Part shown: positions 6,283 to 61,344 of the stretch, in pieces
Layout: the number at the start of each line of letters is the position of its first letter
Position numbering within the stretch: the stretch's first letter is position 1
Translations under genes and position numbers: made by a program
The notes under the pieces: model-generated
The model's input: the letters and a program-made list of their open reading frames with translations, nothing else
Database searches by the model: none
What the model was told of the DNA's origin: nothing
NCBI GenBank assembly: GCA_036172665.1
Contig: CM069872.1
Location: forward strand, 20,687,001-20,751,000
Direction: 5' to 3'
From: Prosopocoilus inquinatus
Lineage: Eukaryota; Arthropoda; Insecta; Coleoptera; Lucanidae
Length of the DNA: 64,000 nucleotides

Positions 6283-6488
6283 TGTTGAGTTTATAATCAT
6301 TTAATCAGTCATTCAATATTGTTTGAGTATTGTAAATACATACTTAATCAAGTTAGTTTATGTCATATTTTTTTTTAATATGTATCGTCTAGTCTATGCA
6401 TCAAGCTTTAATTTGTAATTGCAAAATTTTGAAAAAGTTCTTGCAATAAATACATTGAAGTAAGTGTTATCGTCACTGCCAACCAACA
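6283..6488 (+). repeat. Copia-1 5' LTR
   Basis: 206 bp starting TGTTGAGTTTATAATC and ending CCAACCAACA. It contains an AATAAA (within GCAATAAATACATTG) near its 3' side, likely the polyadenylation signal. It is identical to the 3' LTR except for A versus G at offset 129. Confidence 0.93.
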
Positions 6489-6505
6489 GGTTATGGGCCC
6501 AGATA
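6489..6505 (+). other. Copia-1 primer-binding site
   Basis: GGTTATGGGCCCAG starts directly after the LTR. This matches the primer-binding site of Drosophila copia, which is primed by an internal part of initiator tRNA-Met rather than a tRNA 3' end. The match is from memory of the family. Confidence 0.75.
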
Positions 6506-6636
6506 CAAGGTTTGCCTCAAATTAAGAAAATAGTGTACGAAAAAGTATATTTAAAAAACGTCAACGCGGTTGCAACGTGGAGTGTCAACGAAACAAAATT
6601 TACTTTGAACTTTGTAAATTGCTTTACTCGGTAAAA

Positions 6637-9600
6637 ATGAGTGACAATCACAATTTTCAAGTAAGTTTCGAGAAACTCGAAGGAAGATCCAATTATGCAA
6701 ACTGGAAATTTGGGATGAAAATGGCTTTAATACATGACAATTTGTGGCAATGCATAGAAGGCGATGACAGTAAACTATCGACAGACGAACGATTTCGGAA
6801 GGAGCAGAAAGCATTAGCAAAAATATGCTTGATGATTAAACCTTGTGCCTACCCGTTCGTAAGGGATTGTAAAACAGCTAAAGAAGCATGGGAAAATTTA
6901 CAAAAAGTGTATGATGACAGAGGTCTCACCAGGCGATTAACGTTAATGCGTCGTATTGCCAGTATAAAATTGGTGAATTTTGCAAATATGGACCAGTATG
7001 TCAGTGAAATCATTGCAGTGTCGCAGCGATTAGCAGATATGGAAGCAGGTTTGGACGATGAATTTGTGGCAGTTATCATGCTAAGTTGTCTAACGTCTGC
7101 ATATGATCCTATGGTCATGGCTATTGAAAGCAGCGGTCAAAAAATAACAAGTGATTTTGTGAAGTCAAAACTTTTACAAGAACACAAAGAAAATATTGAA
7201 GCTTTACCATCTACCAGCAGCGAATCAGCATTGCATGTCAAAAAGCATCCGCAAAACAAAAAGAAAATGGTTTGTTACAAGTGTGGGCAACCAGGTCATT
7301 TTAAGAATGTATGTCCCATGAATAAATTAAAGGAGAAAAACAAAACAGTCATAAGTCCTTTCAAGCCTAATAATAATAAAGCTTTGCATATTTGCCTGAA
7401 TGCAAATGTAGATAAATCAGAGGAATGGATTGTCGATTCTGGTGCAACAGCACATATGACTTGTAGAAAGGATTGGCTATGTAACTTCTCCAGAAAAGAT
7501 TTAAAAGTAACTGTAGCGAACAATGCAAGCATAAATAGTGATGGTGTTGGTAATGTAAAAATAATTACGCGTGGTGGAGAAAATGAGGTGATGAATGTGC
7601 TTCATGTACCTTCACTGAAGACAAACTTATTGTCTGTCGAACAAATGGTGCAAAAAGGTCTCACTGTCATTTTTAATCAATATGGATGTAAAGTTCTTGA
7701 TGATAAAAATTGTAATATCAATGGAACTACAATCATCGAAGGTATTCGTCAAGATGGGCTATTTAAAATTAGCACAAAAAATGATGAAGCCTGTTATTCA
7801 GCAAACACTAACAGTCAGGATGACATAATTTGGCACTTAAGATTAGGACATTTAAACCGTGTTAGTATGAATTTACTTAAAAATGGTTTAGCAGAAGGTG
7901 TTAAATTTTCTAATGCAAAATCAGAACCTTGCATAGCATGCATTGAAGGAAAGCAAGCAAGATTACCCTTCAAGAAAAATAAAAACAGAAGAGCAGAAGG
8001 CGTTCTAGATATAGTTCACTCAGATTTGTGTGGACCAATGCCCTGTGCGTCTTGGAATGATGCAAAGTACGTACTTACCTTTATTGATGATTTTACTCGA
8101 AAAATATTCGTATATTTTATAAGCAGTAAAGATAATGTCAAAGATATTTTCCCAGAATTTGTGAGTAAAGTAGAAAGAGAGACAGAAAGAAAAGTAAAAT
8201 GTCTTAAATCTGATAACGGCGGAGAGTACGCAAACAGAGTCATGGAAGAATACATGAAGTCAAAGGGTATAAAGCATCAAACTACTGTGCCATATAACCC
8301 TGAACAAAACGGTATTGCAGAAAGGACCAATAGAACCTTAACTGAAATGGCGAGAAGTATGATCAAGGAATCTGGTTGTGATGAAAGAATGTGGGCAGAA
8401 GCTGTAAATACTGCGGCTTATCTCAAGAATCGTTCTCCCCATAAGGCAATTCCTGGCAAAACACCTGAGGAGTTGTGGTCAGGAAGAAAGGTTAATTTGA
8501 GTCATTTGCGTATCTTCGGATGTATCTGTTACAATTATATTCCCGATCAGTTTAGAAGAAAATGGGATGCTAAAGGAAAACCATATATTTTTGTTGGATA
8601 TTGTGAAGATACAAAAGACTACAGGCTATTTAATCCAGAAAAACCGAAGGCAATAACAAAGGGAAGAAATGTCAGATTCATAGAAAACAAATTTTGGAAC
8701 AAAAAAGAAGATATTGCAAATAACAAGACTAATGTAATACCTATTAACCGAAACATTATTGATACTGAAGAAAACATATCAGATGGAATTGAATTTGAAG
8801 AGGATGCAAAAGACATGGTAGAACCAGAAGAGCCTGCTGAAGAAACAATTGACAGAAGTATCACTGAAGAAGGCACATTAAGAAGGTCACTCAGGCTGAA
8901 GAAATCAAAAGAGTATCCAGAATATGTAGTGTACATGGCAGAAGCAGACGACCCCATTGATGTCAAGGATGCACTGACACGTGACGATAGTGATGGGTGG
9001 AAAGCAGCCATGCAAAGTGAATTTCAGTCTTTAATGGATAATAAGGCATGGACTCTAGTGAAGAGGCCAGCAAATGAAAGTGTAGTTAAAAACAAGTGGG
9101 TGTTTAAGTTAAAAAGTTTGCCAGATGGTTCAATGAAACATAAGGCAAGATTGGTTGCTAAAGGATTTACACAAACATTTGGCCAAGATTACCATGAAAC
9201 TTTTTCCCCAGTCGTTAGAAATTCAACGTTAAGAATTCTGTTTGGAATAGCTGCAAAAATGAATTTAAATATTTTTCACTTTGATGTAGAGACAGCATTT
9301 CTTAACGGAAATTTAGAAGAACAGGTTTTTATGGAACAACCTGAAGGTTTCATAACTCCTGGAAATGAAAATAAAGTTTGTTTATTGCATAAAGCAATAT
9401 ATGGCCTTAAACAATCCTCCAGAGTTTGGAACGTGACGGTTGTTGAAACTTTATTAGATTTAGGTTTTAGTCAATCGAAGTACGAACCTTGCGTATTTAT
9501 TAGAAACAACGAAGACAAAATCGTTATTATTACAGTGTATGTTGATGATTTTTTAATATTCTGTAATAGTAACGCAGAGAAGCAAGTGTTAAGGAAACTA

Positions 9601-10491
9601 TTGTCAGAAAGATTTAAAGTTAAAGATTTAGGAGAGGCGAAACAATGTATTGGCATTAGTATTGAGAGATATGTTGATAAGAAGACAATTTCAATTCATC
9701 AGAAAAAATGCATTTTGTCATTACTGCGGAAATATAACATGCTTGATTGTAAACCCGCTAAAACACCATTGGAAGTTAATTTAAAATTAGAAAAATGTAA
9801 TGATGTAGATTTGTCACTTCCTTATCAAAAACTTGTAGGTGCATTGTTATATTTATCCGTCAATACTAGACCTGATATAACTTTTGCCGTTAATTTTATG
9901 AGTCAGTTTAATAATGGTTATAGTAAAGTTCATTGGAATCATCTTAAAAGAATTTTGAGATATTTGAAGGCTACTATTGACTTTAAACTTGTATTCAATG
10001 GTAATTTTAAATTTGAACTTACAGGTTTTGTAGACTCTGATTGGGCAAATGATCAAGATCGCAAATCTTACAGCGGTTTTGTGTACACGTTAAGTGGTAC
10101 AGCTGTTTATTGGGAAGCTAAGAAACAATCTTGTGTAGCTCTCTCCAGTACTGAAGCCGAATATATTGCTATGTCAGAAGCTTCAAAAGAAGCTGTATAC
10201 CTGAAAAGCTTCTTGAGTGAACTAGGTTTTGACGTTAAAATTGATTTGTACAACGACAATCAAAGTTCACAGAAATTAGTATATAATCCTATCTTTCATA
10301 ATAGAACTAAACATATTAGTGTCAGATATCATTTTATTAGGGACATTGTTGACAGAGGTGTAATTGCTGTTCATTATAAGTCAACAGATAAAATGATTGC
10401 TGACGTATTCACAAAAGGCTTAAGTTCTCCTAAACATTATTTTTGCGTGAATGGATTTGGATTACTTAAGAGCACTGTTAAATTTGAATGA
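6637..10491 (+). CDS. Copia-1 gag-pol polyprotein
   Basis: A single frame of about 1,284 aa from the ATG at 6637 (context taaaaATGag; an upstream in-frame ATG at 6577 would add 20 residues without motif support). Domains in order: UBN2-type gag; CCHC zinc knuckle CYKCGQPGHFKNVC; aspartic protease with DSGATAHM; integrase with the HHCC zinc region (HLRLGHLN, CIACIEGKQARLPF) and DDE core (FIDDFTRKIF, KSDNGGEYAN, PEQNGIAERTNRTL); reverse transcriptase (KARLVAKGFTQ, VETAFLNG, YVDDFLIF); RNase H (GFVDSDWAND, ALSSTEAEYIAM). Copia order, with integrase before RT, is clear. No stops or missing catalytic residues. Gag and pol share one frame, so the gag:pol ratio must be set by another route such as splicing, as in Drosophila copia. 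Confidence 0.96.
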   Translation: MSDNHNFQVSFEKLEGRSNYANWKFGMKMALIHDNLWQCIEGDDSKLSTDERFRKEQKALAKICLMIKPCAYPFVRDCKTAKEAWENLQKVYDDRGLTRRLTLMRRIASIKLVNFANMDQYVSEIIAVSQRLADMEAGLDDEFVAVIMLSCLTSAYDPMVMAIESSGQKITSDFVKSKLLQEHKENIEALPSTSSESALHVKKHPQNKKKMVCYKCGQPGHFKNVCPMNKLKEKNKTVISPFKPNNNKALHICLNANVDKSEEWIVDSGATAHMTCRKDWLCNFSRKDLKVTVANNASINSDGVGNVKIITRGGENEVMNVLHVPSLKTNLLSVEQMVQKGLTVIFNQYGCKVLDDKNCNINGTTIIEGIRQDGLFKISTKNDEACYSANTNSQDDIIWHLRLGHLNRVSMNLLKNGLAEGVKFSNAKSEPCIACIEGKQARLPFKKNKNRRAEGVLDIVHSDLCGPMPCASWNDAKYVLTFIDDFTRKIFVYFISSKDNVKDIFPEFVSKVERETERKVKCLKSDNGGEYANRVMEEYMKSKGIKHQTTVPYNPEQNGIAERTNRTLTEMARSMIKESGCDERMWAEAVNTAAYLKNRSPHKAIPGKTPEELWSGRKVNLSHLRIFGCICYNYIPDQFRRKWDAKGKPYIFVGYCEDTKDYRLFNPEKPKAITKGRNVRFIENKFWNKKEDIANNKTNVIPINRNIIDTEENISDGIEFEEDAKDMVEPEEPAEETIDRSITEEGTLRRSLRLKKSKEYPEYVVYMAEADDPIDVKDALTRDDSDGWKAAMQSEFQSLMDNKAWTLVKRPANESVVKNKWVFKLKSLPDGSMKHKARLVAKGFTQTFGQDYHETFSPVVRNSTLRILFGIAAKMNLNIFHFDVETAFLNGNLEEQVFMEQPEGFITPGNENKVCLLHKAIYGLKQSSRVWNVTVVETLLDLGFSQSKYEPCVFIRNNEDKIVIITVYVDDFLIFCNSNAEKQVLRKLLSERFKVKDLGEAKQCIGISIERYVDKKTISIHQKKCILSLLRKYNMLDCKPAKTPLEVNLKLEKCNDVDLSLPYQKLVGALLYLSVNTRPDITFAVNFMSQFNNGYSKVHWNHLKRILRYLKATIDFKLVFNGNFKFELTGFVDSDWANDQDRKSYSGFVYTLSGTAVYWEAKKQSCVALSSTEAEYIAMSEASKEAVYLKSFLSELGFDVKIDLYNDNQSSQKLVYNPIFHNRTKHISVRYHFIRDIVDRGVIAVHYKSTDKMIADVFTKGLSSPKHYFCVNGFGLLKSTVKFE

Positions 10492-10497
10492 CAGATT

Positions 10498-10506
10498 AAG
10501 GGGAAG
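10498..10506 (+). other. Copia-1 polypurine tract
   Basis: AAGGGGAAG lies immediately upstream of the 3' LTR and would prime plus-strand DNA synthesis. Confidence 0.8.
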
Positions 10507-10712
10507 TGTTGAGTTTATAATCATTTAATCAGTCATTCAATATTGTTTGAGTATTGTAAATACATACTTAATCAAGTTAGTTTATGTCATATTTTTTTTT
10601 AATATGTATCGTCTAGTCTATGCATCAAGCTTTAGTTTGTAATTGCAAAATTTTGAAAAAGTTCTTGCAATAAATACATTGAAGTAAGTGTTATCGTCAC
10701 TGCCAACCAACA
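10507..10712 (+). repeat. Copia-1 3' LTR
   Basis: 206 bp, identical to the 5' LTR except for one base, and followed by the GGGTA target duplication at 10713-10717. Confidence 0.93.
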
Positions 10713-10717
10713 GGGTA

Positions 10718-11851
10718 TTGAATAAATTTATTTACTTAGAAAGAATGGTTTTGAAGAGCGCAAATATATCCGGGTAAAATAAAAGAAGAATTTGACCTGC
10801 TACTGTCGATCCACACCAATGCCAGAAGTTCCTGTGTTTTTTTTTCCAGCTCATCATAGCCCATGCGGCGATCGAACATGTTTCGCGAAGGAGGCGACAG
10901 CAAGGTAACGATTTCTTCGCTATTTCATTGATTGATATGTTATGAACAACGGAGGAATTTCAGCACTTGGCCAACGGACGATTTCGACTGAAGTAATTAA
11001 CTTAAGGAAAGGTAAAACCTCCCTCGGATTTTCCTAAGAAAAATTTCCATTAGTGCCGTGGCACGAGCTTCCGGTAGCAGCACAATGTTTTGCAAAAATC
11101 CAACGAAAAAGAAAGAAATATTGAAATTAACCTACCCCTTTATGTTTATGGGGAAACAAAAGACATTATTAAACGTGAAATTAACTTGGATGACCAAGAA
11201 AATGGTAGGTAAATGTTAATTTTTAAATGAATACTTAAACAACCACCATATTGGCTAGGATTCAAAACGGCAACTGCCCCTCGAAGTTTGAAATCGTCGG
11301 CCAATCCCACCGCTCAGCTTAATCCGACCAATGAGGTGTAAGAGGGTAAGTTCAGACACGTAAGGCCGTTTGACGAAGAACTTCGAATGCAGCCCAATGA
11401 TACAGTATTGCCAATTCTATAAATCAATGTGAACGAAAATAAACATATGAATAAATTACAATGTAAATTGTTGCAACATTCCATTAAAGTGGTAAATGAC
11501 AAAATCAAAATACAAAGAGACAAACAACATGTAATCATATATGTAAACTCGTCCAATAACAACTGCGAAGTTAGTCACACAAAAGGAAACAACATCAGTT
11601 TAACCTTAAAATCAATACAATCGATTTAGTGCTGAAGCGTGGAACAATGAGAAATTTTACGAGGAGAATATTTTACGAGGTAAATAGCCATATTAATTTA
11701 ATCATAATTTAACAATATACTGATGGGATGCTAAACAAGATACAACAGATCCAAGATGCACATTTACAAACACCGTGTCATTTTAAATGTGACAATATTC
11801 AGTTTTTGATAACGAACTGGAAAAGCAGAGTTGAAACACTCTAAAAAAACT
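10718..11851. other. Unassigned interval
   Basis: About 1.1 kb without a recognisable gene or terminal repeat. Only short open frames are present (11429-11629 plus and 11314-11562 minus), and neither has a motif I recognise. Confidence 0.4.
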
Positions 11852-12052
11852 TTTTAGAAAAATTTTGTGCAAATCGTTTTTGATTGCAGTGAGAACCTCG
11901 AGCAGCCTCTGGACAGCTGTTTCAGCCCTGCTTGGGGCTTCTTCAGCAGAAACGTAGCTCGACATTTCCACTGCAGACCAAAAACAGCTGTCCAGAGGCT
12001 GCTCGAGGTTCTCACTGCAATCAAAAACGATTTGCACAAAATTTTTCTAAAA
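11852..12052. repeat. 71-bp perfect inverted repeat with 59-bp spacer
   Basis: Arms 11852-11922 and 11982-12052 are exact reverse complements. The right arm begins about 6-7 nt upstream of the hammerhead cleavage position, so it holds the cleavage site and the stem I 3' strand but not the CUGANGA core. The lack of mismatches suggests recent formation, for example by template switching during reverse transcription. Confidence 0.95.
11885..11975 (-). ncRNA. Type I hammerhead ribozyme, copy 1
   Basis: Read 5' to 3' on the minus strand, the 91-nt segment has the conserved core CUGAAGA, then stem II (AGCCC, loop CAAGCA, GGGCU), then GAAA. A very short self-complementary stem III (ACAGCUGU) follows, with a UC cleavage site between 11912 and 11911. 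Stem I is closed by UUUCUG pairing with CAGAGG next to the core. It continues outward through CGAGC/GCUCG to UGCAGUG/CACUGCA. Minimal stem III is a known feature of metazoan type I hammerheads such as the Schistosoma Sm-alpha repeat. One base differs from copy 2, in outer stem I (GGAAA versus GGGAA). Fold assigned by eye. Confidence 0.8.
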
Positions 12053-12191
12053 TCTTTCATTATGCTTTGACAGCAAGCATGGCCGCCTTGCATGGGGGAC
12101 TCATTAGGAGCAAATCCCGCTTCAATTTGTCTATCCTACTGCAATGTTAGGTCAAAAAGCGATAGTATGATGTCGCTATTTTATATGTTCA

Positions 12192-12590
12192 CTCTAAAAA
12201 ACGGTTGTAAAAACAAGAAAACTTATTTTGGAAACCTATTGCCTCATACATTTCTCGCCAATCTTCGTTTTGTAGTAAACATTGAAAATGGCCAATGTTG
12301 ACTTCCGAAAAGTCGGTATTTCTAAAACTTGAAACGGGTGGTCTGACGGATGTGTACCGGTGACACATACGCTTTCTGGCAAATACGTTACATTAGTGAA
12401 AATATTGTCAATTAGGGTGGCAGAGTGACTTGTTACCCTTGTTGGAGTAACTTTACTTTGTTTAATAATATATTCAAGAAATAAATTAATGATATCATTT
12501 TTGGCATGCGATTCATCTAAAAAATTTCATTAAAATCCCCACATACGATTATATTGCGATTTGTCCTTGGCAATACTCGTGAGAGTGTTA
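12192..12590 (-). pseudogene. LINE endonuclease fragment
   Basis: Minus-strand reading from about 12590 gives NIIVCGDFNE, the catalytic GDFN motif of APE-type LINE endonucleases. With frame changes it continues to TRVTSHSATLIDNIFTN and THPSDHPFQVLE, the last catalytic SDH motif. A linker follows (NIGHFQCLLQNEDWREMYEA, then KFSCFYNRFLE) that leads towards the RT in Jockey/CR1 elements. The fragment stops where the hammerhead repeat body begins at about 12191, so that repeat probably inserted here. Frameshifts at about 12540 and 12320 make it non-functional. Confidence 0.75.
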
Positions 12591-21950: not shown

Positions 21951-21954
21951 TTAA

Positions 21955-22262
21955 TACTTTATAAAAATTTTGTGCAAATCGTTTTTGATTGCAGTGAGAA
22001 CCTCGAGCAGCCTCTGGACAGCTGTTTCAGCCCTGCTTGGGGCTTCTTCAGCAGAAACGTAGCTCGACATTCCCACTGCAGACCAAAAACGACTTGCCCA
22101 ATTTATTCGCAAATGCGATGTAAGAATGATGAACATATAAAATAGCGACATCTTACTATCGCTTCTTGACCTAACATTGCAGTAGGATAGACAAATTGAA
22201 GCGGGATTTGCTCCTAATGAGTCCCCCATGCAAGGCGGCCATGCTTGCTGTCAAAGCTTTGA
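21955..22262 (-). repeat. Hammerhead repeat family, copy 2
   Basis: On the minus strand the order is body module (22262-22135, starting GCTTTGACAGCAAGC and ending GTTCAT), a linker of about 50 nt, the complete hammerhead (22080-21990), then a tail (CAAAAACGATTTGCAC to about 21955). The body is nearly identical to 12063-12191 apart from a few substitutions in the GCGATAGT region. The body contains small hairpins such as GCGA...TCGC. It interrupts exon 3 of the hAT-1 transposase, read from the same strand. Open frames through it (SAEEAPSRAETAVQ) come from the ribozyme palindromes, not from a protein. Confidence 0.85.
21990..22080 (-). ncRNA. Type I hammerhead ribozyme, copy 2
   Basis: Minus-strand 91-nt motif with the core CUGAAGA, stem II AGCCC-CAAGCA-GGGCU, GAAA, minimal stem III ACAGCUGU and cleavage after UC between 22017 and 22016. 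Stem I next to the core pairs UUUCUG with CAGAGG. Beyond an internal loop it pairs CGAGC with GCUCG, then UGCAGUG with CACUGCA. All core positions fit the hammerhead consensus. The stem II closing pair is A-U rather than the usual G-C. The motif fits standard descriptions, but self-cleavage is untested. Confidence 0.83.
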
Positions 22263-23650
22263 ATTGCATCAGTTGCCCGTAATTTGCCCATACAGTCTTC
22301 AAAGATTGTATTCGTACTACCCATCTGTAAAATAGAAATCAAAACTTATAACCTAATCCATGTTTTAATAAAATTGCCAATTTTAATATACCTACCTTGT
22401 CGGGCAATAGGCTGCAAGAGCAGGTAAATCGTCTCTCCTTTTCTGCTGTAGTCTGCAACTCTTTAAATTGTGCAACGCGTTTGGGCGAGTCTCGTACAAA
22501 GTTTATCAAATCTTTGATTGTTCCAATGAATGTTCTTACTGGTATAACCTTTTGGATCGCATCTTGGACAACAAGATTGAGATTATGAGCATTACAGTGC
22601 ACAAATAGTGCTCGAGACTCTTCTTCACGTATTCGCGTCTGCAATCCAGAGATTTTTCCAGAAACATTCGATGCCCCATCGTAACACTGGCCTCTAAGTT
22701 TAGAAAATGATAGCTTATGCAGGACGAAAATTTCGTTGACGAGATCAAATAAGGTTTTTGCTTTTGTGTTTGGCATTGAAAAAAATCCGATAAAATATTC
22801 TTTCGCGTTTAAATTTTCGGAAACGATTCTGAGGCAAACAGAAACTTGTTCAGTTCGGGACACGTCGGCAGTTTCATCTAATGAAATCGAAAAATATTCA
22901 CCTTCTCTTATCTCGTCCATGATTTCTTCTATGACTGTAGTAGCCATCAACTTGACAATTTCATTTTGGCTATCGTGATGAAGCCATCTTTGACCACCTC
23001 TTTGCAGCCAAGATTTTAGTTCTACCACATCTTCTGCGCGAGCTTTTAAAAATGTCATGAAATTGGAATTGGAATTCTCGTTGCTGTCGTTTCCACGTCC
23101 TCGTATAGGCAGATCCTGTCTGGCCAGTGCTTTTAGTGTGCTAAATATTTTCAATAATGCCGTTCGATTATCCATCATTTGCTTCGAGTGAGCTGTCGAT
23201 ATTGATTGTACCACGTTAATTTTAGTAACGTTTCTTAATGCCTCGGTGCAATGTAAGTGTAGAGAACTCGACGAATGAGTTTTTAGTCGCTCTGCTCCAT
23301 GCTTCCAGTTTGAAAATCCCTTGTCAACCCATGCTTGCTTTGATTTGTTAGCACGCGAGTCGAAATTAGTTATTAATTTCCGTTCGCATGCTTCGGTACA
23401 GATAGTGCAAATTCCTTTACTGTTGTTGTTGAGTTGAAGCCACGGATTGTGCTTTTTCCAATGTTCAAAAATTGAGGGAACCGAAGAATTTTTTGCACCT
23501 GGTTCTGGGAAAAAAATATCCCTGTATTTCTAGATATTTTTATGTATTTTATTTCTCATATTAACGATTGATTTTTAGAATTACGTTCTCAAACTTTTAT
23601 TTTTAATTTAATTTTCAAAATTTTCATTTTATCTATACTTACGATTTGCG

Positions 23651-26600
23651 CAGTGGCGGCGATAAGATTTTGGGGGCCCCCCCGCCGTATTTACTCATAC
23701 ATGTGACTAAAATAAATATAACACCTAATAACAATACATGGAACTTAAAACACTTACTGCAATAGAAACATCAGGACAGCGCTGAACTGCCAAAACGCCG
23801 TTGCTTTTGTTTCAAAAATTTGTCCACTAATTGTTCCAAGTTGAGTTCACAAGTACGTTCATGTTCAATACTTAAAACACCCAAACCAATAAGCCTACCT
23901 TGGCTCATTGTACTACGCAAATAACTTTTTATTAGTTTTAATTTGGAGAATGTTACAGGCAATGTTAAAAAAGTTGAAATAATGAACAAATATCTGGAAG
24001 ACTGCTCAAAATGCATCTGTTTTCTGATATAAAATATCTGGCTAATTCAGAAATAGTTTTAGTGGACATAATTTCATTTGAAAAAGTACTTTTGAAGTTT
24101 ATTAACTGCATAGACAAACCCTCCGAAAAGTTAAAAAAAAAAATAAAATATTTTATTGGCATGTCCGACTATTTCATCATTTGATAGTTTAACGAACGTG
24201 TCTGGTTTTAAAAATGAAGAATTGCTCATTACTTCGTTCATGCTGGTAAATCGTGTTCTGAGCTGATTAATTAATATATCCAAAGATTCGTAAAATACTT
24301 TAATTTTAAATCTTTCTAAAGAATTTTCTATTTGAGTGTCCGCTGCCAGCTCATCAAAAAAAGTTTTGACTTTTCTTTTACGCTTAGATGTTAATGTTGG
24401 TTGAATATCCCAAGATTTCGCTAAATTGCTCGCTTCTCTATGTAATGCATCAAAATCATATCTAAGATTGGAAAAATGATCTATCGTGAAGTTCATTAAT
24501 TCGCAGGCCCGATCCAGATGAACTGTACTGATGTACTGAACTTTGCAGCAATTTAGATACTAAATTAATATTTTCCAAAACCTTACATTGGTATACAAGA
24601 AGCAAGATGAAATCATAAGTATTCATACGTTTTTGCAAAGAGTTTGCTTCTGTTCTGTCGGCCGTTTTTTTGCAAATTAAAGTAAACGTTGACAAGCATT
24701 GCATCACTCATTTATAGTTATACTTAATAGCACTCAAACAATCAAACCGTGATGACCATCTTGTAGGACATAATCTCTTCAGAGTTTTTCTAATCATTAC
24801 AATTTCTTCTTTAGATTTGTTTAGCTCTTGCCAGTGCGGTAAACTTTGACTGAAAAACGAATATATAGTTTCCACCAATCCGTAGAAATCTCTAATTTGA
24901 CCAATATTTTGCACTGAATCATTCAATACTAGATTTAAATTATGTGCAGCGCAATGCACAAAATCTGCAGTTGGCACTTTTTCTTTTATTCTTGCCTGAA
25001 GTCCAGAATATTTTCCGCTCATGTTAGAAGCCCCATCGTACCCTTGACCTCTGCATTTTCTTATGTCAATTTTCATTTCATTCAATGTATTCAGAATTAT
25101 ATGTTCAAAATTTCTGGCACTTTGATCCTGTATTTCAATAAAACCGAGGAACGATTCCTTTATTTCTATTTTACCGCCGGCAACAGATTTATCAACGTTT
25201 AGATCGACGTTAACGTGGCGAATACATATGCTTAATTGATCCCTCTTCGAGATATCTTGCGTTGTATCGACGATTATTGAAAAAAACGGCGCCTTAGAAA
25301 TTTCACGAACTATATTTTCTATCACACATTTAGACATCAAGTTTATTATTTCATTCTGGGTATCGTGATGTAAATATTTGTTCCTATTGCTTTCATTTGT
25401 TATATGGGAGTTTAACAAAGCATCGTAACGTGACACCAAACCATTAATATTCAAAAAGTTGCCACTATGAGGCCCTATTTCATAAACATTCTCGCGATGA
25501 CCACGAAAGGGTAAATTGCAAACTGCTAAAGTTCGGATTGTATCAAAAATTCTTACCAATATTTGTTTGATAGTTTCATGCGATCCTTGAAGCAAATTTT
25601 CTACAGTTTTGTTTTTTTCCCAAGATGTGTGTGCAACACATGCACGAAAATGAGCTGCACTTTCTTCATGCGTTTTAATTTTTTTACTTAGGCCTCTCCA
25701 ATCGCTAATGGTCCCGTCACAACATGGGTTTCTTGAATCCGAAAAAAGCCAGCAAGGTTGGCAGTAAACTGCATTTAAAACTTGGGAATAGCATAACCAA
25801 AATCTTTCTATTTTCTGTTTAGCTTTAGTAGTAGTATAATAATATTCAACACTACATGACCGATTTGTATGTACATATCTAACAAACGGCCCAGTAGGTC
25901 TATTTGGACCTGCTGCAATAATTTTTCGCTTCATCTCATCAGATAGCTTGTCAGGAAAAAACGCCCTATCTGTATCAAATAGAACTAATTCATTGTCATA
26001 TACTGTGCTTATTTCTTGAATATCTAAATTTAATTCGCTTACAACAGAATTTTGTTCCTCAACTGCAATTTCTGTAGACTCAAAGTTGGATTTTGAAGAT
26101 GAAGCTTGACTAGCAAAATCTTCTTGACTCTTATTCTCGTCATCCTTTTCGTCCTGGTGTTCCTTTTGTTGCTGTTTATCTGTTTCACTTAATATTTTTA
26201 AAAAACTGTCGATCTTAGGAAGCTTATTAATTGCTTCCAATTTTTCGATTTTAATTTTTCTTTTTCGAGCACCACTGAGGTACTGCCTACCTTTATCAGT
26301 CATTATTGTTAAGTTAAATTAAACACAATCACAAAACAAAAACCAACTCCACAAATACAGTTCAACGAGTCTGTTCGTCAACACCGATCGCCACTGAGAA
26401 ATTAAACCAAAAGGGGTTGCGTTGCAAGTCAAACAATAATTAAAAGAAAACTAAAATTGTGTTATTGGGTATTGGGGTAGTCGTAAATAAACATGTGTTA
26501 ATACAATGCTCTACATCCGGTGGTGCTTGGACGTGGCAGATGAAGGCAAAGCGCAATAAATCTTTCTTTGCGACCCATCGTTGGTGGCAACCACTTATTT

Positions 26601-32627: not shown

Positions 32628-34741
32628 CGGAATGGGACGATTCAGCGCCGCCGTTTCATCGCCGCCGTTTCAGCGCCGCCGTTTCACCTCCGGAACGTTT
32701 CAGCGCCAGCCGTTTCATCGCCGACCCATTTCAGCGCCATGAAAAATTATATTTCGGAGATTAGGGATTAGAGGAATGGGTGATTAAAACGAAAGACCTT
32801 TTTTAACTTTAACTTTAACTACCTTTATTAAGTGCCATATTGGGAAAATATTTTCAAAGTCTGGTTACTTAGTAGATATTCTTAAATATTGGTAAATATT
32901 TTAAATATTGATTAACAGATTTTAATCAGTTATTTGATAATTGTGGGCAATTCCTCTTAAATATTCCGCTTCGGTTCTGTTGTAGTCGGTAACAATACGG
33001 AGTATGCGTTCATCTGCGTCCCGATATTTTTTTAATTTCATCTGTGGCTGATTTCCGGCCACTAATTGTTCATAGTAGGTATCCCACCCCTTTTGGACTT
33101 TGCGCAATCCATCTATAAACTTCCATATTGTTGGATGGGTCATTCCTAATTCAGATTGTAGTCGGCGATGAGCAGCTTCACAGTTGTTATTTGTACGATC
33201 ATTTCTGTTTATTGTTCGATCATACAGATTCCACATTTCTGGTGGAAACAAAGGTCGTCGTCTCCCATTTCCACGTCTATTCAAACGGCCTATGTAATTG
33301 TCTTCAAACCAGTCTATCAAAGGGTGAAGTTCGTCAGGTAACACATCATTGAGTGCATCAAGATAATTATCTAAGTGCTCAATCCTTACAAAAGCTAAGG
33401 CAATCACCATTTTTGCTTGTAAACAAAAATCTGCGTCATTATTGTAACGATTTAATAAGCCCAACTGGCCTATATGTTTTCGCATATTTTGAGATAAATG
33501 GAAGAAGCATCCTTTAATAGAAACATCTGGAAAACACTGGGCCATTGCACCAAAAGCTGCCTGTTCAAAATCACAATATATGGAAGTTGGATTTAAATTT
33601 TCTTCCACCCCTTTTATTAAATCGAACATCCTTACATACGTATTGCGTTGCTTATCCGGTAACAGGGCATAAAATATTGGTATAATTCCTCCCAACCTTT
33701 CTACCATCACTGTATATACTTGAGCAAACAATCTGGGAGCAATTGAAAATGTACCATCTGCGTACCATGTATTAGATGTCCGCAAGAGTTGAGTCCAAGT
33801 TGCTCGTCCAAAAATTAGAATTCTCGTCGGCCCTTCACCACTGTCACAAAGTAAGAAATTTTCTATAGTGTTTGGCTGTGGTACATATTGCCTGTATTCT
33901 TCGGGCAAAACCAATTCTGCCAAACTTGTAGGATCCGTAGGAGCTGCGTTTATGGCATTCCGTACACGTCTTACCACTTTCCTCAAGGCTGTGTTATTTG
34001 GAAGTACTGCTTCCGAATCTTGGGATACATTTGTTAAACAATTATTAATAACATTTATTGTCCCCTCTGCAGTATTCTCTGCCCGACGTTTAATGTTACT
34101 AACAATTTGAGCTACTTCCACTCTGGCTGCCGAAGAGGAGTGTGAATGAATATTAATTTGCTTAATAACTTCACCCGCTGTCGTATGAATTCGAGCTTTG
34201 CAGCGTCCCATTTGCTCGCAGCGCCAAAATTTAATGTCTTCGTTTGTTTTAGAGCATTTGTCAAAAGTGTATAAGAAACCATCATACACAAATTTAGCTT
34301 TTCCTCTTGAACTCACAATTGTAGCCTCCATCTTAATGGATAAATTCACAAACTTAACGTCCACTACCTTTGAAATAATTTCAAATAATGAGCAGAAAGT
34401 ACACTAACAGTTCTTTAAATACTTATTGTGTATTTGCACTATTACTAAAGGTAGTTAAATCCTAAGAATTTCCTAATAAGGTCTTTCGTTTTAATCACCC
34501 ATTCCTATAATCCCTAATCTCCGAAATTCCTCCAAGCACTTAATGGGTTAATTTTATATTTGATATTTTTAATGCCAATTTTAAGTTGTGAAACCGTATT
34601 TAGCTCATATCAAATACTTTAATTTTTCATGGCGCTGAAATGGGTCGGCGATGGAACGGCTGGCGCTGAAACGTCTCGGCGATGAAACGGCGGCGCTGAA
34701 ACGGCGGCGATGAAACGGCGGTGCTGAATCGTCCTAGACCC
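32628..34741 (-). mobile_element. MULE-1 (Mutator-like) with 9-bp target duplication
   Basis: CCCAAATGA at 32619-32627 and again at 34742-34750 flanks the element. The terminal repeats share GGACGATTCAGC and run about 115 bp as imperfect repeats of a 14-bp GC-rich unit (GCCGCCGTTTCATC/AGC). A second inverted block (about 32755-32804 and 34470-34530) carries a segment ending TCACCCATTCC and its inverse. The single gene is on minus. Size about 2.1 kb with an intact frame, so potentially autonomous. Confidence 0.88.
32922..34331 (-). CDS. MULE-1 transposase with FLYWCH zinc finger
   Basis: About 469 aa from the ATG at 34331 (MEATIVSSRGKAKFVYDGF); an upstream in-frame ATG at 34364 would add 11 residues. 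The N-terminal FLYWCH-type finger shows FVYDGFLYTF, FWRCEQMGRCKARIH and the HSHSS histidines. The MULE DDE domain shows WYADGTFSIAP (D), SIYCDFEQAAF (D), GCFFHLSQNMRKH and TNNNCEAAHRRLQ (E). The C-terminus is helical and ends YLRGIAHNYQ, a tail shared with the MULE-2 protein at 43154-44560. No stops. Its target would be the GC-rich terminal arrays of its own element. Confidence 0.92.
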   Translation of the reverse strand: MEATIVSSRGKAKFVYDGFLYTFDKCSKTNEDIKFWRCEQMGRCKARIHTTAGEVIKQINIHSHSSSAARVEVAQIVSNIKRRAENTAEGTINVINNCLTNVSQDSEAVLPNNTALRKVVRRVRNAINAAPTDPTSLAELVLPEEYRQYVPQPNTIENFLLCDSGEGPTRILIFGRATWTQLLRTSNTWYADGTFSIAPRLFAQVYTVMVERLGGIIPIFYALLPDKQRNTYVRMFDLIKGVEENLNPTSIYCDFEQAAFGAMAQCFPDVSIKGCFFHLSQNMRKHIGQLGLLNRYNNDADFCLQAKMVIALAFVRIEHLDNYLDALNDVLPDELHPLIDWFEDNYIGRLNRRGNGRRRPLFPPEMWNLYDRTINRNDRTNNNCEAAHRRLQSELGMTHPTIWKFIDGLRKVQKGWDTYYEQLVAGNQPQMKLKKYRDADERILRIVTDYNRTEAEYLRGIAHNYQITD

Positions 34742-35405: not shown

Positions 35406-37832
35406 CTACAATTTTACCCTTCTAACTTTAATTTTAGCAAATTCGTCAATTAGGAATGTGTAGTCTAGAGTGGCAGCCAGTGTAGATTCAATAGAAATTA
35501 ATGACAGATTTCTAAGTTTTGTTTGGCTTATTGAACTTCTTAAGTAATGTTTTATTAATTTTAATTTCGAAAAACTTCTTTCTCCACTAGCTACAGAGAC
35601 AGGAAGTGTTAATAAAATTCTCAGAGCTACAGCAATATTCGGATACAAAGTAATTAAGTTATTTTGGGACAAATAATTTAAAACATCGAAAGGGTTCATA
35701 GAATACGGTAGCATGCGAGACACATCACGTAATTCTTCTTGAAGATCACTTGCATTTATGTCTGATTCATTTTCGACCGAAAGTATTGACTGGAGACCGT
35801 TACAATAATTTTCTAATGTTTTATCATCTGTACCTTTGAGTTTGAAAATGTCATATAAAAACTGAAAATTTTTGCTATGTGTTTCTAGAAGTGTGAATCG
35901 TTCATTCAGAGAATTAAGAGTAATGTCAAGCATGTAATAGAAAAAGTTTATTTTAAATTTATTTTCCTCTGTTAAGGGTTCATCAATAGCTTCATAGTCA
36001 AACTGACGGTTTTTTCTTCTGGCTCTAACTTCAGTTTCGGCAGGAAATTCTGTAGTGCATTCAAGATTCTGTGCAATCTCATTAGCAGCAATTTTCATTT
36101 GTTCATAACCAGATTGTCTATAAGTTTTCACCTTTTGTATGGTGTCTGATAACATTCTTACGCAATCTGACAAATTTATAGTTACAGATTGCAATAGTTT
36201 CGAGACTGAATTTATTTCAAATAAAATATCGTACCAAAGAATTACACCGCATAGAAACTTGTAATTTTTAATATTTCTTGCTAACCCTTTTGCTTTAACT
36301 TTAATTTCTGCATCTATGTTGACGTTTTCTATCATATGAAATAATGCATCATAGATTTCGCAAAGTTGAAATCGTAAAGGTCTTAACGCGTCTACTCTAC
36401 TTGACCACCTAGTAGCACTCAATGGTTTTAGAGTTAATTGTGAAACATATTTTTTTAACACTTCCCAACGCTTTGTAGAACCAGAAAAAAAAGTGTAAAG
36501 TTCTTGTACAACAGAAAAAAAAGTTATTGTTTCTGTAGAAGATGCTGCATCATTCACAACTAGGTTTAAAGAATGGCATGCGCAGGGCACATAAAACGCC
36601 CTTGGATATTTTTCAAATATTCTATTTTGTACACCCTTCCTTATTCCTTTCATATTAGCTCCGTTGTCGTAGCCTTGCCCTCTAAGCCATTTTAAGTCAA
36701 AACCTAACTTACCCAAATGTGTTAGAATAAGTTCTGTCAAACCCTTTCCGGTTGAGTCACTAGCTTCAAAAAAGCCAATAAAGAATTCTTCAATTTCATA
36801 TTTATCTTGAGTGGAATTAAAAGCGACAACTCTTATTGTTAATGATAGCTGTTCAATATGACTTACGTCTGGGATACAATCTGCGATTATCGAAAAATAT
36901 TTAGCGATTTTTGTTACATCGACAATTTTGTTTAAAATTGTATTTCCCATCAAATTTATCAATTCATCTGGTATATTATTGCTTAGATAAGTCACAGACC
37001 ATTTATCAGACTCGCGTTGAACTCTCCTGATATGTTCTTCCATAATTGGATCAAATTCGGAAAGCAATTCTACCAATTTTAGGAAGATTCCGTTATTAGC
37101 CTGAAACAAATGTTCAGTTGTTCCACGAAAAGCTAAACATCGTGAGGCCAATAGTCTAATTATTGAAATAATTCTTTTTAGAACTCCTCTCCAATGCTGA
37201 ATTTCCATATCCATAATTCGTTGATATTCAGCGTCAATAGTTTTTTTTTGCTTTAATCGAATGTCCAATTCTTTCCATGCTCTAAAAGCATTTCTATGAT
37301 TTACAGACTTTTCGTGCATTGTGAGAGCTCTTATAAGATTTCCCCAGTCAGAATAGCCTTTTTTGGGCCAGTCGCTAATACTAGACGAATTATTATCAAA
37401 TAATATACAACAAAAGCAAAAAACGGCATCATTTGTAACAGAGTAAATCAACCAACTTCTCTCAACGACTTCACCATTGCTCAACACTTTTAAATAATGC
37501 GAGGGCGAAAATCTGCGCCTTCCTTTATTAATAGGAAACTCGAATTCTTTAATTTGATGTGGACCCCTCTCAACCAATATTTGACGAGTTTCGGATGACA
37601 TGCAGAAAGGATTCCATAATGCAGGATCAGAAGGAATCAGCTGGCTGTCACTGCCACTGCTACCCGGCTCTTGATGAATTTCTGATGGTGTTATTTCTTG
37701 GTTTCTTTCCACAACTTCTGGAATTGATTGGAGCGGCACTGAGTTTTTATTTTCCAAATCCAGAGTGGTTACTGTTGATGTGGATGCGGACGGTTCCTCT
37801 AAACAGGACTGTTGTACCAAGAATTCCTTCAT
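35406..37832 (-). CDS. hAT-3 transposase (DUF4371/ZMYM1-like)
   Basis: An 808-codon open frame on minus. Order: low-complexity start, TTF-type zinc finger (WLIYSVTNDAVFCFCCILF), DUF4371/hAT core (YFSIIADCIPDVSHIEQLSL, LRGQGYDNGANMKGIRKG, VPCACHSLNLVVNDAASS), SATRWSSRVDALRPL, a long helical insertion and the hAT dimerisation domain (LPVSVASGERSFSKLKLIKHY, RNLSLISIES). Relatives of this group begin with a basic peptide. Here the upstream in-frame sequence at about 37901-37850 encodes MSGSQYKKKRLKKEEQ followed by a TAA. So either translation starts at 37832 without that peptide, or one nonsense mutation has hit an otherwise intact gene. TIRs not identified. Confidence 0.85.
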   Translation of the reverse strand: MKEFLVQQSCLEEPSASTSTVTTLDLENKNSVPLQSIPEVVERNQEITPSEIHQEPGSSGSDSQLIPSDPALWNPFCMSSETRQILVERGPHQIKEFEFPINKGRRRFSPSHYLKVLSNGEVVERSWLIYSVTNDAVFCFCCILFDNNSSSISDWPKKGYSDWGNLIRALTMHEKSVNHRNAFRAWKELDIRLKQKKTIDAEYQRIMDMEIQHWRGVLKRIISIIRLLASRCLAFRGTTEHLFQANNGIFLKLVELLSEFDPIMEEHIRRVQRESDKWSVTYLSNNIPDELINLMGNTILNKIVDVTKIAKYFSIIADCIPDVSHIEQLSLTIRVVAFNSTQDKYEIEEFFIGFFEASDSTGKGLTELILTHLGKLGFDLKWLRGQGYDNGANMKGIRKGVQNRIFEKYPRAFYVPCACHSLNLVVNDAASSTETITFFSVVQELYTFFSGSTKRWEVLKKYVSQLTLKPLSATRWSSRVDALRPLRFQLCEIYDALFHMIENVNIDAEIKVKAKGLARNIKNYKFLCGVILWYDILFEINSVSKLLQSVTINLSDCVRMLSDTIQKVKTYRQSGYEQMKIAANEIAQNLECTTEFPAETEVRARRKNRQFDYEAIDEPLTEENKFKINFFYYMLDITLNSLNERFTLLETHSKNFQFLYDIFKLKGTDDKTLENYCNGLQSILSVENESDINASDLQEELRDVSRMLPYSMNPFDVLNYLSQNNLITLYPNIAVALRILLTLPVSVASGERSFSKLKLIKHYLRSSISQTKLRNLSLISIESTLAATLDYTFLIDEFAKIKVRRVKL

Positions 37833-37901
37833 AACGTAGCTTAACTGTTTTTATTGTTCCTCTTTCTTTAAACGCTTCTTTTTGTATTGACTTCCAGACA
37901 T

Positions 37902-38600: not shown

Positions 38601-39913
38601 CATTACGTACCAAACACAAAAGTAGTCCCGGCTGTAGGAGATGTAATAATTTCGAAGATTCTATGACGATAATGAATAAATTTCATAAGAAACTATTTCA
38701 GTGCGATGGCTGTAAGAATGACATCTGTACGGAATGTGGAAAACCTAGCGCTTCTGAACAACGGTGTTTAACATTAAAAGAAAAAAGACTATTCTTCTTT
38801 TGTGAAAACTGCTCTTCGAATTTATATATTGACAATGAGATTCAGGTAACGTTGGATGAAGATAGGAGGACCATTGCATCACAGCAAGAAGAATTATGTG
38901 CACTGCAGAAGAAAATTGCTGAAGTACAAAGCATGCATCAAACCTTTTTGGAAGATTCTTTAAATATGGAGGACTCGCTAAATAGAAAAATAAGTGAGTT
39001 CACTAGGAAAAATGATTCAACTCAAAGAGCTCTAAATTTGAAGAAAAGCATTAAGACTCAAACAGAGGCGCTCGAGAGAAAAGATAAGCACACGCAACAC
39101 TGGATACAACTAGAGGATAAAGAGGTACAGCACGACTTAATAGTATCTAGCAACTTAATTCGTAATTCATCACAAACGCAAACTTCTTCTCCACAAGTAA
39201 TTAACAAAGAAGCTCAAACAACTTACTGTTATGGTAGTGAGGTTCTCTTGCCGGAATATAGTCAAATTGAAGTAAACATTACCGCTAAGGTTGTATCTAT
39301 AAACGAAAATCTATTAGAGACTGACAAACCGCTAAAAAAGGTTTTAATATTGAGTGACAGCCATGGCCGGAATGTAAGTTCTTACTTTAAGGAGAAATTA
39401 CCAGTGGTATCAATTACAGGATTAGTAAAACCTAACGCCAAAATTCACAATATAGTAGAAAACTTAGAACAATTGGTAAGGGAATATAGGAAATCGGACT
39501 TCATTTATTTAATTGCCGGAACCAATGATATTAACGAATGCTATGACAGTGAACGCATCAGTCAATTAATTAAAAGCTTTGAGGTTGTGATGAAAAAAAC
39601 TACTCAAACTAATATAGTCATTTCTACTATTCCATTTAGATGCCATGATGAAATATCAAACAAAATCATTGAGCACATTAATTATAAATTATATTACTTG
39701 GCCAAAAAATATGATCACGCTCATATACTCTGTGTAAATAACATTATTACCATTAACGACTACTCTCATGACGGGATTCACCTAAGAGCACGAGCAAAAG
39801 GCTATATTTCTAGCATCATCCACAATGTCATGGTCAGCTCAAATAGCCTGCAAGTTACAGACTCCTTAGAAGAATCTGAATCTTTTTTATACCCGAACAG
39901 TTACTTTTATTAA
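38600..39913 (+). CDS. LINE-C ORF1: zinc-finger, coiled coil and SGNH esterase
   Basis: The first ATG in frame is at 38663 (416 aa), but the frame is open from about 38576 and encodes a CRRCNNFEDS pair that belongs to the PHD-like finger continued as CDGCKNDICTEC and CENC. The true start is therefore probably lost or upstream. Then comes a coiled coil (about residues 65-120, QEELCALQKKIAEVQ) and a C-terminal SGNH hydrolase: LILSDSHGRN (nucleophile Ser), AGTNDIN, SHDGIHLRARAKG (Asp-His). CR1/L2-type LINEs carry such esterase ORF1 proteins, thought to act on lipids or as RNA-binding accessories. ORF2 follows after about 10 bp. Confidence 0.85.
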   Translation, partial: TLRTKHKSSPGCRRCNNFEDSMTIMNKFHKKLFQCDGCKNDICTECGKPSASEQRCLTLKEKRLFFFCENCSSNLYIDNEIQVTLDEDRRTIASQQEELCALQKKIAEVQSMHQTFLEDSLNMEDSLNRKISEFTRKNDSTQRALNLKKSIKTQTEALERKDKHTQHWIQLEDKEVQHDLIVSSNLIRNSSQTQTSSPQVINKEAQTTYCYGSEVLLPEYSQIEVNITAKVVSINENLLETDKPLKKVLILSDSHGRNVSSYFKEKLPVVSITGLVKPNAKIHNIVENLEQLVREYRKSDFIYLIAGTNDINECYDSERISQLIKSFEVVMKKTTQTNIVISTIPFRCHDEISNKIIEHINYKLYYLAKKYDHAHILCVNNIITINDYSHDGIHLRARAKGYISSIIHNVMVSSNSLQVTDSLEESESFLYPNSYFY

Positions 39914-59477: not shown

Positions 59478-61344
59478 CATAGTTTTTATGAACAATTAAA
59501 ATAGCGACATCTTACTATCGCTTCTTGACCTAACATTGCATAGTTTTTGTGTGAAAAATCACGTTACATTCAATACATAAACCAACATCGCACTTTATGC
59601 ATAGGGTTCTTGCGCTAGTCGTGCAACCTTCTCCAGAAAAAGCGACGTTTCTTTTTATTTGGTATTGAGGTCAAAAGATGATTTTTACCATCATACCTGA
59701 TATCGTCAGATATTCTGTTGAATGACACGCTAGATCTTGAGGTGGATGGCCGGCCTGCTCCTTTGCGAGAATTTTCATATGTCTTGAGGTACGTCTGTGT
59801 AATACTTCGTCTAAAATCAAGTTGTGAAATTTTGGAATTATTAGCTGTTCTGTATAATAACCATGAGTTTGTAATAGAAACGTCTAATAGATAAGTGAAG
59901 ATACACCACCACCATTTTTTTGAACGAATTCCAATGCGGTACTTCGATACAAATTCATCCATCAAATCAGTGTTATTGTTATATTCAGCAATAACATGGG
60001 GTCGCGGCACTTGGATATACTTTTTTTCATTTTTGTTATATCTTTGTACGTTCCCCAATGGTTTTATGCCATGACAGGTGGAACCGGTAGTGACGACATT
60101 ATTGTCTGCCGATTTGACAAAAATCATGCCATGATCTTTATCAGTAGCTGAAACATGAGTACCCCTATTACGTTTTTGTATATCTTTCTTCGAAAGTAAA
60201 GGACAGTTCTTTGGTATTCTATTGTCACGTATAGTACCGGTACAACCATGCCCTCGTTGCTGCATATCATTTAACAAATTCATTCCGGTAAATAAATTAT
60301 CCAAGTAAAATTATATTTCGAGTGAGGTAAAGTATCAATCATAGAGACAAACGGTGCTGTACATTTTCCGTACAAAAATTCATATTTTTCATTAGCAGTT
60401 AGAGATTTTCCCTGGTTTAGATCACAGTTTACTAAGTAACCTTCGCTAGTGTTTAGAGCCCACATTTTAAAACCAAAGCGGATGGGTTTTCCTCTAATAA
60501 ACTGTTTACATCCATGTTTTCCATAATATGTAATCATCGATTCGTCAAAATCTAATTTTTCAACGGGTACGAAAAAATTTAGAAAACGTTCCGTCAATAA
60601 TTCCATCAATGGTCGTAGTTTATATAATTTATCAGAATAATCAATTTTGGTATTGTCAGCACAGTGTACAAACCTCATTATTTGAATAAATCTGTCCCTT
60701 CTCATTGCGTTGCTAACTAGAAGATTCTTTAAATCTGTCCCAGAATCCCAATAAAAACGTCTTCCTGGCTTTTGATCGTACCCACTTACAATCAAAATTG
60801 CTATAAAAGCTCGAAATTCATCTGCTGTAACGTTGGGATTTGGACAATTCTTGAAAGCGGCATAATTTCTAGTTTCACGTACGAGAAGATCAATTACTTC
60901 ATTATCGATAAATTTTTCTAAAATAGCGACGCAAGAAATATCACGAAAGTGTTCGTAATTAGGATGAGGGAAAACTCTACTATTGGATTCCACTAGATCA
61001 GCATTTTCGATCCAATTTATAGAGTCCCTGAGATTGATTTGTTGAGGAAAATTTTGACTCTGGGAACTAGCGGGTGTTTGGGGACTAGCGGGTATTTGGG
61101 AACTGGTAGCGAGGTCTTTAAAATCTTGAATTTCGCCAACACATCGATCTTCAACGTCTTGTTGCGAACTAATTCTTTCTGAGGTATGCAGTTTTATCTC
61201 TACTTTTGAACGAAGCTGACGACCGCTCAAATTATCCAATGTGCCTCCATCATCTTCCTCGGCCGAATCCTCGTCTGTCAGAGCGCTGATCTCTGGCGGC
61301 TCTATAAAAATCTCGCTAGTATCAGCAATATAAGCCATTTCCAA
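59478..61344 (-). pseudogene. piggyBac-2 transposase, frameshifted
   Basis: Minus strand from 61344 (MEMAYIADTSEIFIEPPEIS, acidic) through the core: FRAFIAILIVSGYDQKPG, MRRDRFIQIMRFVHC, KLDFDESMITYYGKHG (D), then a shift near 60290 to FTGMNLLNDMQQRGHGCTG, VIAEYNNNTDLMDEF (last Asp region) and WWWCIFTYLLDVSITNSW. A second shift near 59640 leads into the C-terminal finger GEGCTTSARTLCIKC, GLCIECNVIFH. The second acidic motif (TDNxF) falls at the first shift. The original end KTM-stop is now interrupted by a 51-bp insertion at 59488-59538, which supplies an earlier TAG. Inactive. Confidence 0.82.
59488..59538 (-). repeat. 51-bp fragment of the hammerhead repeat with 10-bp target duplication
   Basis: CATAGTTTTT at 59478-59487 and 59539-59548 flanks a 51-bp segment. 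On the minus strand this runs CAATGTTAGGTCAAGAAGCG to GTTCAT, matching the 3' part of the body module at 22135-22182. It has the look of a 5'-truncated retrotransposition with target-site duplication and without a poly-A tail. It lies just before the stop codon of the piggyBac-2 transposase. Confidence 0.85.

Follow-up and report, generated by a model that had tools for sequence, protein, structure and literature searches.

A probable hammerhead retrozyme with an insertion anatomy of Penelope-like type in the beetle Prosopocoilus inquinatus

Background

Penelope-like elements (PLEs) that carry minimal hammerhead ribozymes were reportedly described by Cervera and de la Pena in 2014, and the small hammerheads associated with PLEs are said, after Lunse et al. 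in 2017, to cleave as dimers. Animal retrozymes are known for type I hammerheads, circular RNAs and tandem copies (PMC7229834, PMC7761336, PMC6155905). PLEs have been named as their likely drivers, so far only as a proposal, on the grounds that type I hammerheads are found in both, that both occur in tandem and that they share the same genomes (PMC7229834, PMC7761336). The protein of the PLE PAc cuts and extends both target strands and starts reverse transcription at two internal sites, with no start-site difference between the strands in vitro, and the PLE 'tail' is an optional extension of 30-40 bp equal to the stretch between the two reverse transcription (RT) start sites (PMC11167929). This tail is optional at one of the inverted pLTRs (PMC3846280).

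The repeat described here was found in a 64,000-nt stretch of the P. inquinatus genome (assembly GCA_036172665.1, contig CM069872.1, positions 20,687,001 to 20,751,000, forward strand), hereafter the window. With the metazoan non-LTR retrozymes of Cervera and de la Pena (2020, PMC7229834) it shares a type I hammerhead, a non-autonomous nature, dispersed and tandem copies, a similar unit length (about 170-400 nt there, about 312 here), a low GC content (below 45% or 50% there, 44% here), target duplications of more than 4 bp and the presence of PLEs alongside. It differs from them in that, among the clusters sampled here, most copies are partial dimers joined head-to-head, with a choice of two 3' ends, instead of plain tandems, in the palindromic stem III of its ribozyme, and in being known from DNA, its circles being putative. 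Like the PLEs with minimal hammerheads, on the evidence of PMC11167929 and PMC3846280, it shows a head-to-head arrangement, an optional tail at one end, a type I hammerhead with a minimal stem III and short target duplications (8-10 bp in rotifer PLEs and 11-14 bp in PLE family A, a resident of the same beetle genome). In contrast to PLEs, it has no reverse transcriptase or GIY-YIG frame, its start sites lie some 140-170 nt apart as against 30-40 nt, and its sequence does not significantly resemble that of PLE family A.

Results

The hammerhead and its copy in the window

A sequence-only reading of the window had described a dispersed repeat with a complete type I hammerhead, and our analyses support that description, with the repeat being of the retrozyme kind. 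All the parts that had been claimed could be read from the window letters on the minus strand, between 22057 and 22011: stem I pairs UUUCUG (22057-22052) with CAGAGG (22016-22011), and between these lie CUGAAGA (22051-22045), stem II formed by AGCCC (22044-22040) and GGGCU (22033-22029) around the loop CAAGCA, the GAA (22028-22026), the palindrome ACAGCUGU of stem III (22025-22018) and C17 at 22017, with the cut predicted between 22017 and 22016. The 35-nt catalytic core of this first copy, from CUGAAGA through stem II, GAA and ACAGCUGU to C17, occupies 22017..22051 of the minus strand, and the hammerhead with its extended stem I hairpin covers 21970..22101 on the same strand, where model R1 gives 147.7 bits, a self-match since the model was trained on copy 1 itself. 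The window copies thus show the conserved core, the three stems and the open stem I of a type I hammerhead.

The copy at 11885-11975 differs, as had been stated, by one base of 91, at 22072, which leaves the core unaffected; its core (11946-11912, minus strand) is identical to that of copy 1 across the 28 letters searched (11946-11919). Two occurrences of the core's first 28 nt were counted in the window, against none in any of 100 dinucleotide shuffles, and the region 21960-22110 (151 nt) folds with a z-score of -8.5 against shuffles. Conservation of the core in the two copies had been taken as a sign of recent function, an argument that we do not follow, near-identical copies saying little on this point; diverged relatives that keep the core say more.

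Covariance models and diverged relatives

The proposed check with Rfam covariance models gave a divided answer. No family reached its gathering score in the window and neither hammerhead copy was listed, the best hammerhead match at the site being Hammerhead_HH9 with 14.5 bits (cut-off 52, E 0.84), whereas a search with RF00163 across the host genome (650 Mb, 173 contigs) returned eight matches elsewhere, seven of them above the cut-off, at 34.1-42.6 bits, two of these seven (L005 and L006) being near-identical stretches. Taken to the letter, the window copies fail the covariance-model test that the sequence-only reading had set for itself. By eye, the cores of these genomic matches are of the same type as that of the window.

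An alignment of 17 copies, 13 of them distinct, with a mean column identity of 60%, leans towards intact cores, because most of its diverged rows came from a hammerhead-model search. In all 17 rows C3, U4, G5, A6, G8, G12, A13, A14 and the pair A15.1-U16.1 are invariant, while A9 lies in a column with gaps; position 17 carries C or A in every row but one (L003), which has G. Hammerheads are not known to cut at a G in position 17. The proposed stem cells are paired in 81.7% of cases, against 25.5-41.1% with the partner slid, and changes on both sides of a stem number 16 against 8.4 in shuffles, a value equalled by one shuffle in 500, with compensatory changes in stem I (U-A/C-G) and stem II (A-U/G-C). 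Two of the five covariation measures do not exceed the shuffles (98/500 and 466/500), and related rows may beat shuffles in the absence of any structure.

A second, diverged hammerhead family was seen by eye at L001, L002, L004, L007, L031:5074 and L035:1888; most of its copies have a 3' end like CGAAACTGACTTGCAACTA, and it is probably older and mostly truncated.

The repeat unit and its abundance

Exact matches to the 35-nt core number 11,198 genome-wide (5552 forward, 5646 reverse), a count of cores and not of insertions that corresponds to one per 58 kb, against no occurrence of the reversed pattern; the exact core is absent from IMG/VR viral contigs and GTDB genome contigs. A DNA search of the genome with the hairpin as query returned no match, even though the window itself contains it; this kind of search passes over very common words. 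The first 100 core places listed, all on one contig (C1), fall into 73 groups, 23 of which hold at least two cores; both orientations are present in 19 of these 23, and cores on the same strand are spaced by 309-312 bp, once by 624. The unit is about 312 bp long, and four of its features, namely this length, two alternative 3' ends, head-to-head joins and mostly 12-bp target duplications, had escaped the sequence-only reading. In a natural tandem at L030 the hammerhead is followed by end A (AAATTTTTCTAA), a 5' stretch beginning TTTCATTATGCTTTGACAGC and end B (CGCTATTTTATATGTTCA), after which comes the extended stem I that belongs to the following hammerhead.

A tandem-capable unit of 170-400 nt with a type I hammerhead is a mark of metazoan retrozymes, and the 312-bp unit has this form. 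It encodes no protein of its own that Pfam matches: one frame of the L030 tandem unit (third forward) is stop-free over 103 codons, possibly by chance, 312 being divisible by three, and the 147-aa frame in L003 had no Pfam match at E up to 1. The joint reverse transcriptase and GIY-YIG frame of a PLE is absent, the unit being too short for it.

Within the window, copy 1 (21951..22257, minus strand) consists of one arm, 5'-truncated at 22257 and with a type A 3' end near 21951-21956; a target duplication was looked for at this copy and none was found. Copy 2 (11849..12189) is a head-to-head insertion, in which the arm with the hammerhead lies on the minus strand and ends in type A at 11849, and the second arm lies on the plus strand and ends in type B at 12189, the whole being flanked by an exact target-site duplication, CACTCTAAAAAA, at 11837..11848 on the left and 12190..12201 on the right. 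A short fragment of 51 bp on the minus strand (59488..59538), 5'-truncated and without the hammerhead, has a type B end and a 10-bp target-site duplication, CATAGTTTTT (left 59478..59487, right 59539-59548).

Anatomy of the insertions

We sampled 39 clusters, 28 of them at the 30 core places listed first on C1 (L052-L081) and 11 from L029, L030, L031, L033 and the window. Clusters below 60 bp or at most 60 bp from the end of a locus were excluded, as were repeated records of the same insertion and L032, which is nearly identical to L031. Since a 3'-type end stands at both sides, 26 of the 39 are head-to-head; the other 13 lack two clear 3'-type ends. The two-ended clusters comprise 24 A/B, two B/B and no A/A (P ~5e-6 if the ends were independent), a tally that leaves uncounted three clusters (L030:4826, L030:6424, L031:6797) resembling A by eye at an end labelled 'o', of which L030:6424 would be the one A/A case if A stood at both its ends.

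An exact target duplication of at least 10 bp flanks 21 of the 24 A/B insertions, as against 5 of 266 swapped-flank controls, and in 13 of the 21 it is exactly 12 bp long, which is the mode. The retrozyme insertions accordingly display the head-to-head arrangement, the alternative 3' ends ('tail') and the short target duplications of the PLE type, and not the fixed terminal inverted repeats and constant duplication of a DNA transposon or MITE. No regular poly-A tail was found at the retrozyme ends examined. It is this anatomy, read from genomic copies, that is new, and it points to what may move animal retrozymes.

One retrozyme insertion with a 14-bp duplication (L029:5393-5854) lies, by eye, a few hundred bp upstream of an SLX1-like GIY-YIG frame.

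Resident Penelope-like elements

A first look for GIY-YIG in the host genome gave 2232 candidates, of which 150 were scored and all 150 matched; these are not all PLEs, because the match beside the retrozyme in L010/L029, tried as a PLE, resembles by eye the host SLX1 endonuclease gene and was rejected. PLE family A, which is abundant, combines RVT_1 and GIY-YIG in one frame of 788 aa, and five more copies are 99.5-99.8% identical to the copy bearing this frame over 2.5-2.8 kb. Its repeats hold CUGAAGA-UGGUAAC-UUC-GUUACC-GAAA-UACGUA-UU^CGCU, a motif that Rfam did not match and that, read by eye, appears hammerhead-like and minimal, with a palindromic stem III.

The 11 insertions of this family that were examined (nine nearby minus/plus GIY-YIG pairs together with the full-length L036 and L038, which have no listed partner) are all head-to-head with ends of A/B type and duplications of 11-14 bp, as counted without a swapped-flank control. 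At one end they carry CACTATTTA(T) or a sequence close to it; the opposite end lies about 39 nt further on and reads GCTTTGTGAT(TA). The stretch between these two ends is the counterpart of the published PLE 'tail'.

Between PLE family A and the retrozyme, the start sites seemed promising by eye as a common sequence, but they are not significantly alike and the idea was dropped: the A-A likeness was reached by 1674 of 2000 shuffles, and the B-B likeness by 185 of 5000 shuffles and 111 of 922 PLE windows. A wider sequence comparison was likewise not significant (81 of 300 shuffles as good), and an alignment of the stretches after the cut, equalled or exceeded by 7 of 1000 shuffles, was too weak for use.

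Another PLE family, at L039:3600-4100, shows minimal hammerhead-like motifs by eye, GTC-CTGATGT...GAAATATTGAC on the plus strand and CTGAAGAAGCAAT...GAAATATCGAC on the minus strand.

The copied RNA and the variants common to both arms

In 23 of 24 cases, the two B/B rows without an A-arm being omitted, the A-arm is longer than 62 nt and so crosses the ribozyme cut site. Inner ends near the cut number 2 of 52 against 1.3 expected, with no pile-up, and both come from L066, where the palindrome blurs them. Because the A-arms cross the cut and the inner ends do not gather at it, the RNA that was copied would have been uncut or religated, and not a cleaved linear monomer copied by run-off.

At sampled insertions, positions departing from the majority are common to opposite arms in 19 of 102 cases, nine of the 19 stemming from one insertion (L066), as against 436 of 16,567 between insertions; variants common to both arms indicate that the arms of at least some insertions derive from one template lineage. 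Same-strand tandem units have only 2 of 43 such positions in common.

The loop-II G is changed at 140 places. Under a fixed grouping rule (gap up to 700 bp), the 100 of these that are listed form 83 groups, nine of which contain two to seven variant cores; all the listed variant cores, to which the comparison of letters is confined, agree within each of the nine, both strands are represented in six, and in the largest group the seven cores are split two to five between the strands. As multi-core groups are rarer among loop-G variants (9/83) than among unchanged cores (23/73), most loop-G variants probably arose after insertion. For the loop-II A variant, inspected by eye, the letter is the same in both of two multi-core groups.

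Variants of the catalytic G12 were found in 62 cores forming 60 groups, just one of which has more than one variant core, with letters that disagree. The share of multi-core groups is thus 1/60 for G12 against 9/83 for the loop G (one-sided p 0.031), or against 11/114 once the loop A is added (p 0.040). These data fit the notion that dead ribozymes may seldom spread, in a weak test of one catalytic site. Constraint was not read from the numbers of core variants alone, an approach that we dropped, for they are not ordered by constraint (62 for the catalytic G12, 140 for the loop G and 34, fewer than for G12, for the loop A). A need for ribozyme cleavage is likely, but in vitro PAc inserted normally even with its hammerhead mutated (PMC11167929).

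Predicted fold and dimer

The minimal stem III of the sequence-only reading stands in part: ACAGCUGU is present, but only about 2 bp round 4 nt close within one molecule. The best fold of the monomer pairs the core CUG with CAG (-73.5 against -68.6 kcal/mol for the hammerhead fold), whereas two 71-nt copies co-folded without constraint give a double hammerhead with an 8-bp stem III at -59.5 kcal/mol, against 2 x -27.8. On the strength of the co-fold energy and the poor closure of stem III in one molecule, the dimer is predicted to be likelier than the monomer as the active form. In this predicted pairing of two hammerheads by a short, self-complementary stem III, the retrozyme resembles the small PLE-associated hammerheads that reportedly cleave as dimers; it differs from them in its long extended stem I and in being a non-autonomous element. 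Axolotl retrozymes are reported to act as dimers (PMC7229834), and dimer action has been considered possible for PLE hammerheads as well (PMC7761336).

Discussion

We consider it probable, at roughly three chances in four, that the repeat is a non-autonomous hammerhead retroelement of the metazoan retrozyme kind, with a unit of about 312 bp, moved by PLE machinery. Its unit, core count, A and B ends, duplications, tandem spacing, head-to-head joins and cut-spanning templates are read directly from the DNA. We infer from them cleavage, circularity and a PLE protein as the agent, in the following manner: tandem retrozyme copies would be transcribed, the hammerhead, probably double through its palindromic stem III, would free unit-length RNA that is then closed into circles, and a PLE protein would nick both target strands some 12 bp apart. 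Reverse transcription on one RNA would then begin from two fixed places, A by one strand and B by the other, and the two cDNAs, able to circle the template more than once, would join head-to-head, often over a few matching bases.

Several findings stand against this reading or its details. PLE family A, the sole family compared at its ends, has no significant likeness to the retrozyme, and PAc shows no start-site difference between the strands in vitro (PMC11167929), yet one A and one B per insertion are the rule here. The missed Rfam cut-off of the window copies and of the PLE motif, the best monomer fold, the PAc mutants and the few variants common to same-strand tandem units also count against it. 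Within the search made, and in the parts of the sources that it covered, no report was found of a PLE footprint on retrozymes or of a strict A/B rule, which is not proof of absence.

The copies might instead be remnants of an autonomous PLE that escaped detection, in which case they would be its pLTRs, solo or in tandem, with their hammerhead, and not an element in their own right. PLE pLTRs do bear hammerheads, tails and inverted partners, both in the literature (PMC11167929, PMC3846280) and in PLE family A, and with 150 of 2232 GIY-YIG candidates scored another family could hide; against this, retrozyme units stand in series at 309-312 bp, no PLE frame lies near the copies in L001-L008 (at least 100 aa) or L029-L033 (at least 150 aa), and a 321-nt query from copy 1 goes unmatched in L036-L038, gives in L034 and L035 only matches that are separate, diverged or short, and has no match below E 0.2 in the PLE of L039, so that we hold such an origin to be rather unlikely. 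That machinery of the LINE type moves the retrozyme appears very unlikely. LINEs also show target duplications of this size and 5' truncation, and a LINE-like reverse transcriptase frame is present in the window; yet head-to-head joins with two alternative fixed ends make up the 'tail' signature, unique to PLEs according to PMC11167929 and seen in 11 of 11 insertions of the resident PLE family A, and the retrozyme ends examined carry no regular poly-A.

Hardly credible, in our judgement, is a DNA transposon of the foldback or MITE sort, with inverted repeats that form a hammerhead by accident, for although the inverted repeats are strong and the duplications short, the inner joins vary by copy, the duplications vary in length, copies are 5'-truncated and tandem, and most core positions are invariant in relatives at 60% mean column identity; insertion ends, duplication lengths and inner-join positions largely refute it. 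A further question is whether the head-to-head copies come from self-priming on one template and not from two cDNAs, as has been suggested for rotifer PLEs (PMC3846280). Variants common to both arms would agree with self-priming, as would inner ends at most 10 nt apart in the unit in 6 of 26 clusters (two of these rows blurred by overlapping matches), but the inner ends lie further apart in the other 20 (some rows blurred) and the combination of one A and one B outer end is left unexplained, which makes this origin unlikely.

Returning to two cDNAs laid down by PLE machinery, we offer more tentatively, at clearly less than even odds, that each insertion derives from one circular RNA, both nicked strands priming on the same circle with A and B as the sole starts. 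If such a circle offered a single A site and a single B site, the absence of A/A, the A/B rule and the template lineage common to the arms would be explained; rare variants could then be common to arms and tandem units, though same-strand tandem units have few in common, which lowers the odds, and the RNA would be intact across the cut. In place of the circle there may be a multimeric RNA template, or the PLE complex may divide the two starts among its parts in a fixed way. The sampled young retrozyme copies bear a footprint of PLE type, as do the resident PLEs of the same genome, which would suggest a sharp rule of PLE integration, each insertion having one end of type A and one of type B, a regularity not seen in vitro. 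If the single circle holds, two-site, two-strand integration would apply to PLEs too, and PLEs would be the drivers of animal retrozymes.

Other elements in the window

At 6283-10718 lies a Copia LTR retrotransposon, a young insertion, whose open frame of 1321 aa (gag, integrase, RVT_2) stands between 212-bp repeats 99% alike. A nest of transposons, described from the part of the frames that was scanned, extends over 455-2367, 22339-26318, 32635-34734, 35406-37850, 39880-42558, 43154-44626, 51177-52754 and 59615-61428, and includes Harbinger-like DDE_Tnp_4 and DUF4371/hAT frames, two FLYWCH/MULE elements, one of them with inverted repeats (32635-32749/34620-34734), two piggyBac-like transposases and a LINE-like reverse transcriptase. 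Tandem arrays are found at 53719-54359, with about four copies of a 163-bp unit, and at 44877-45043, with about ten copies of a 17-bp unit.
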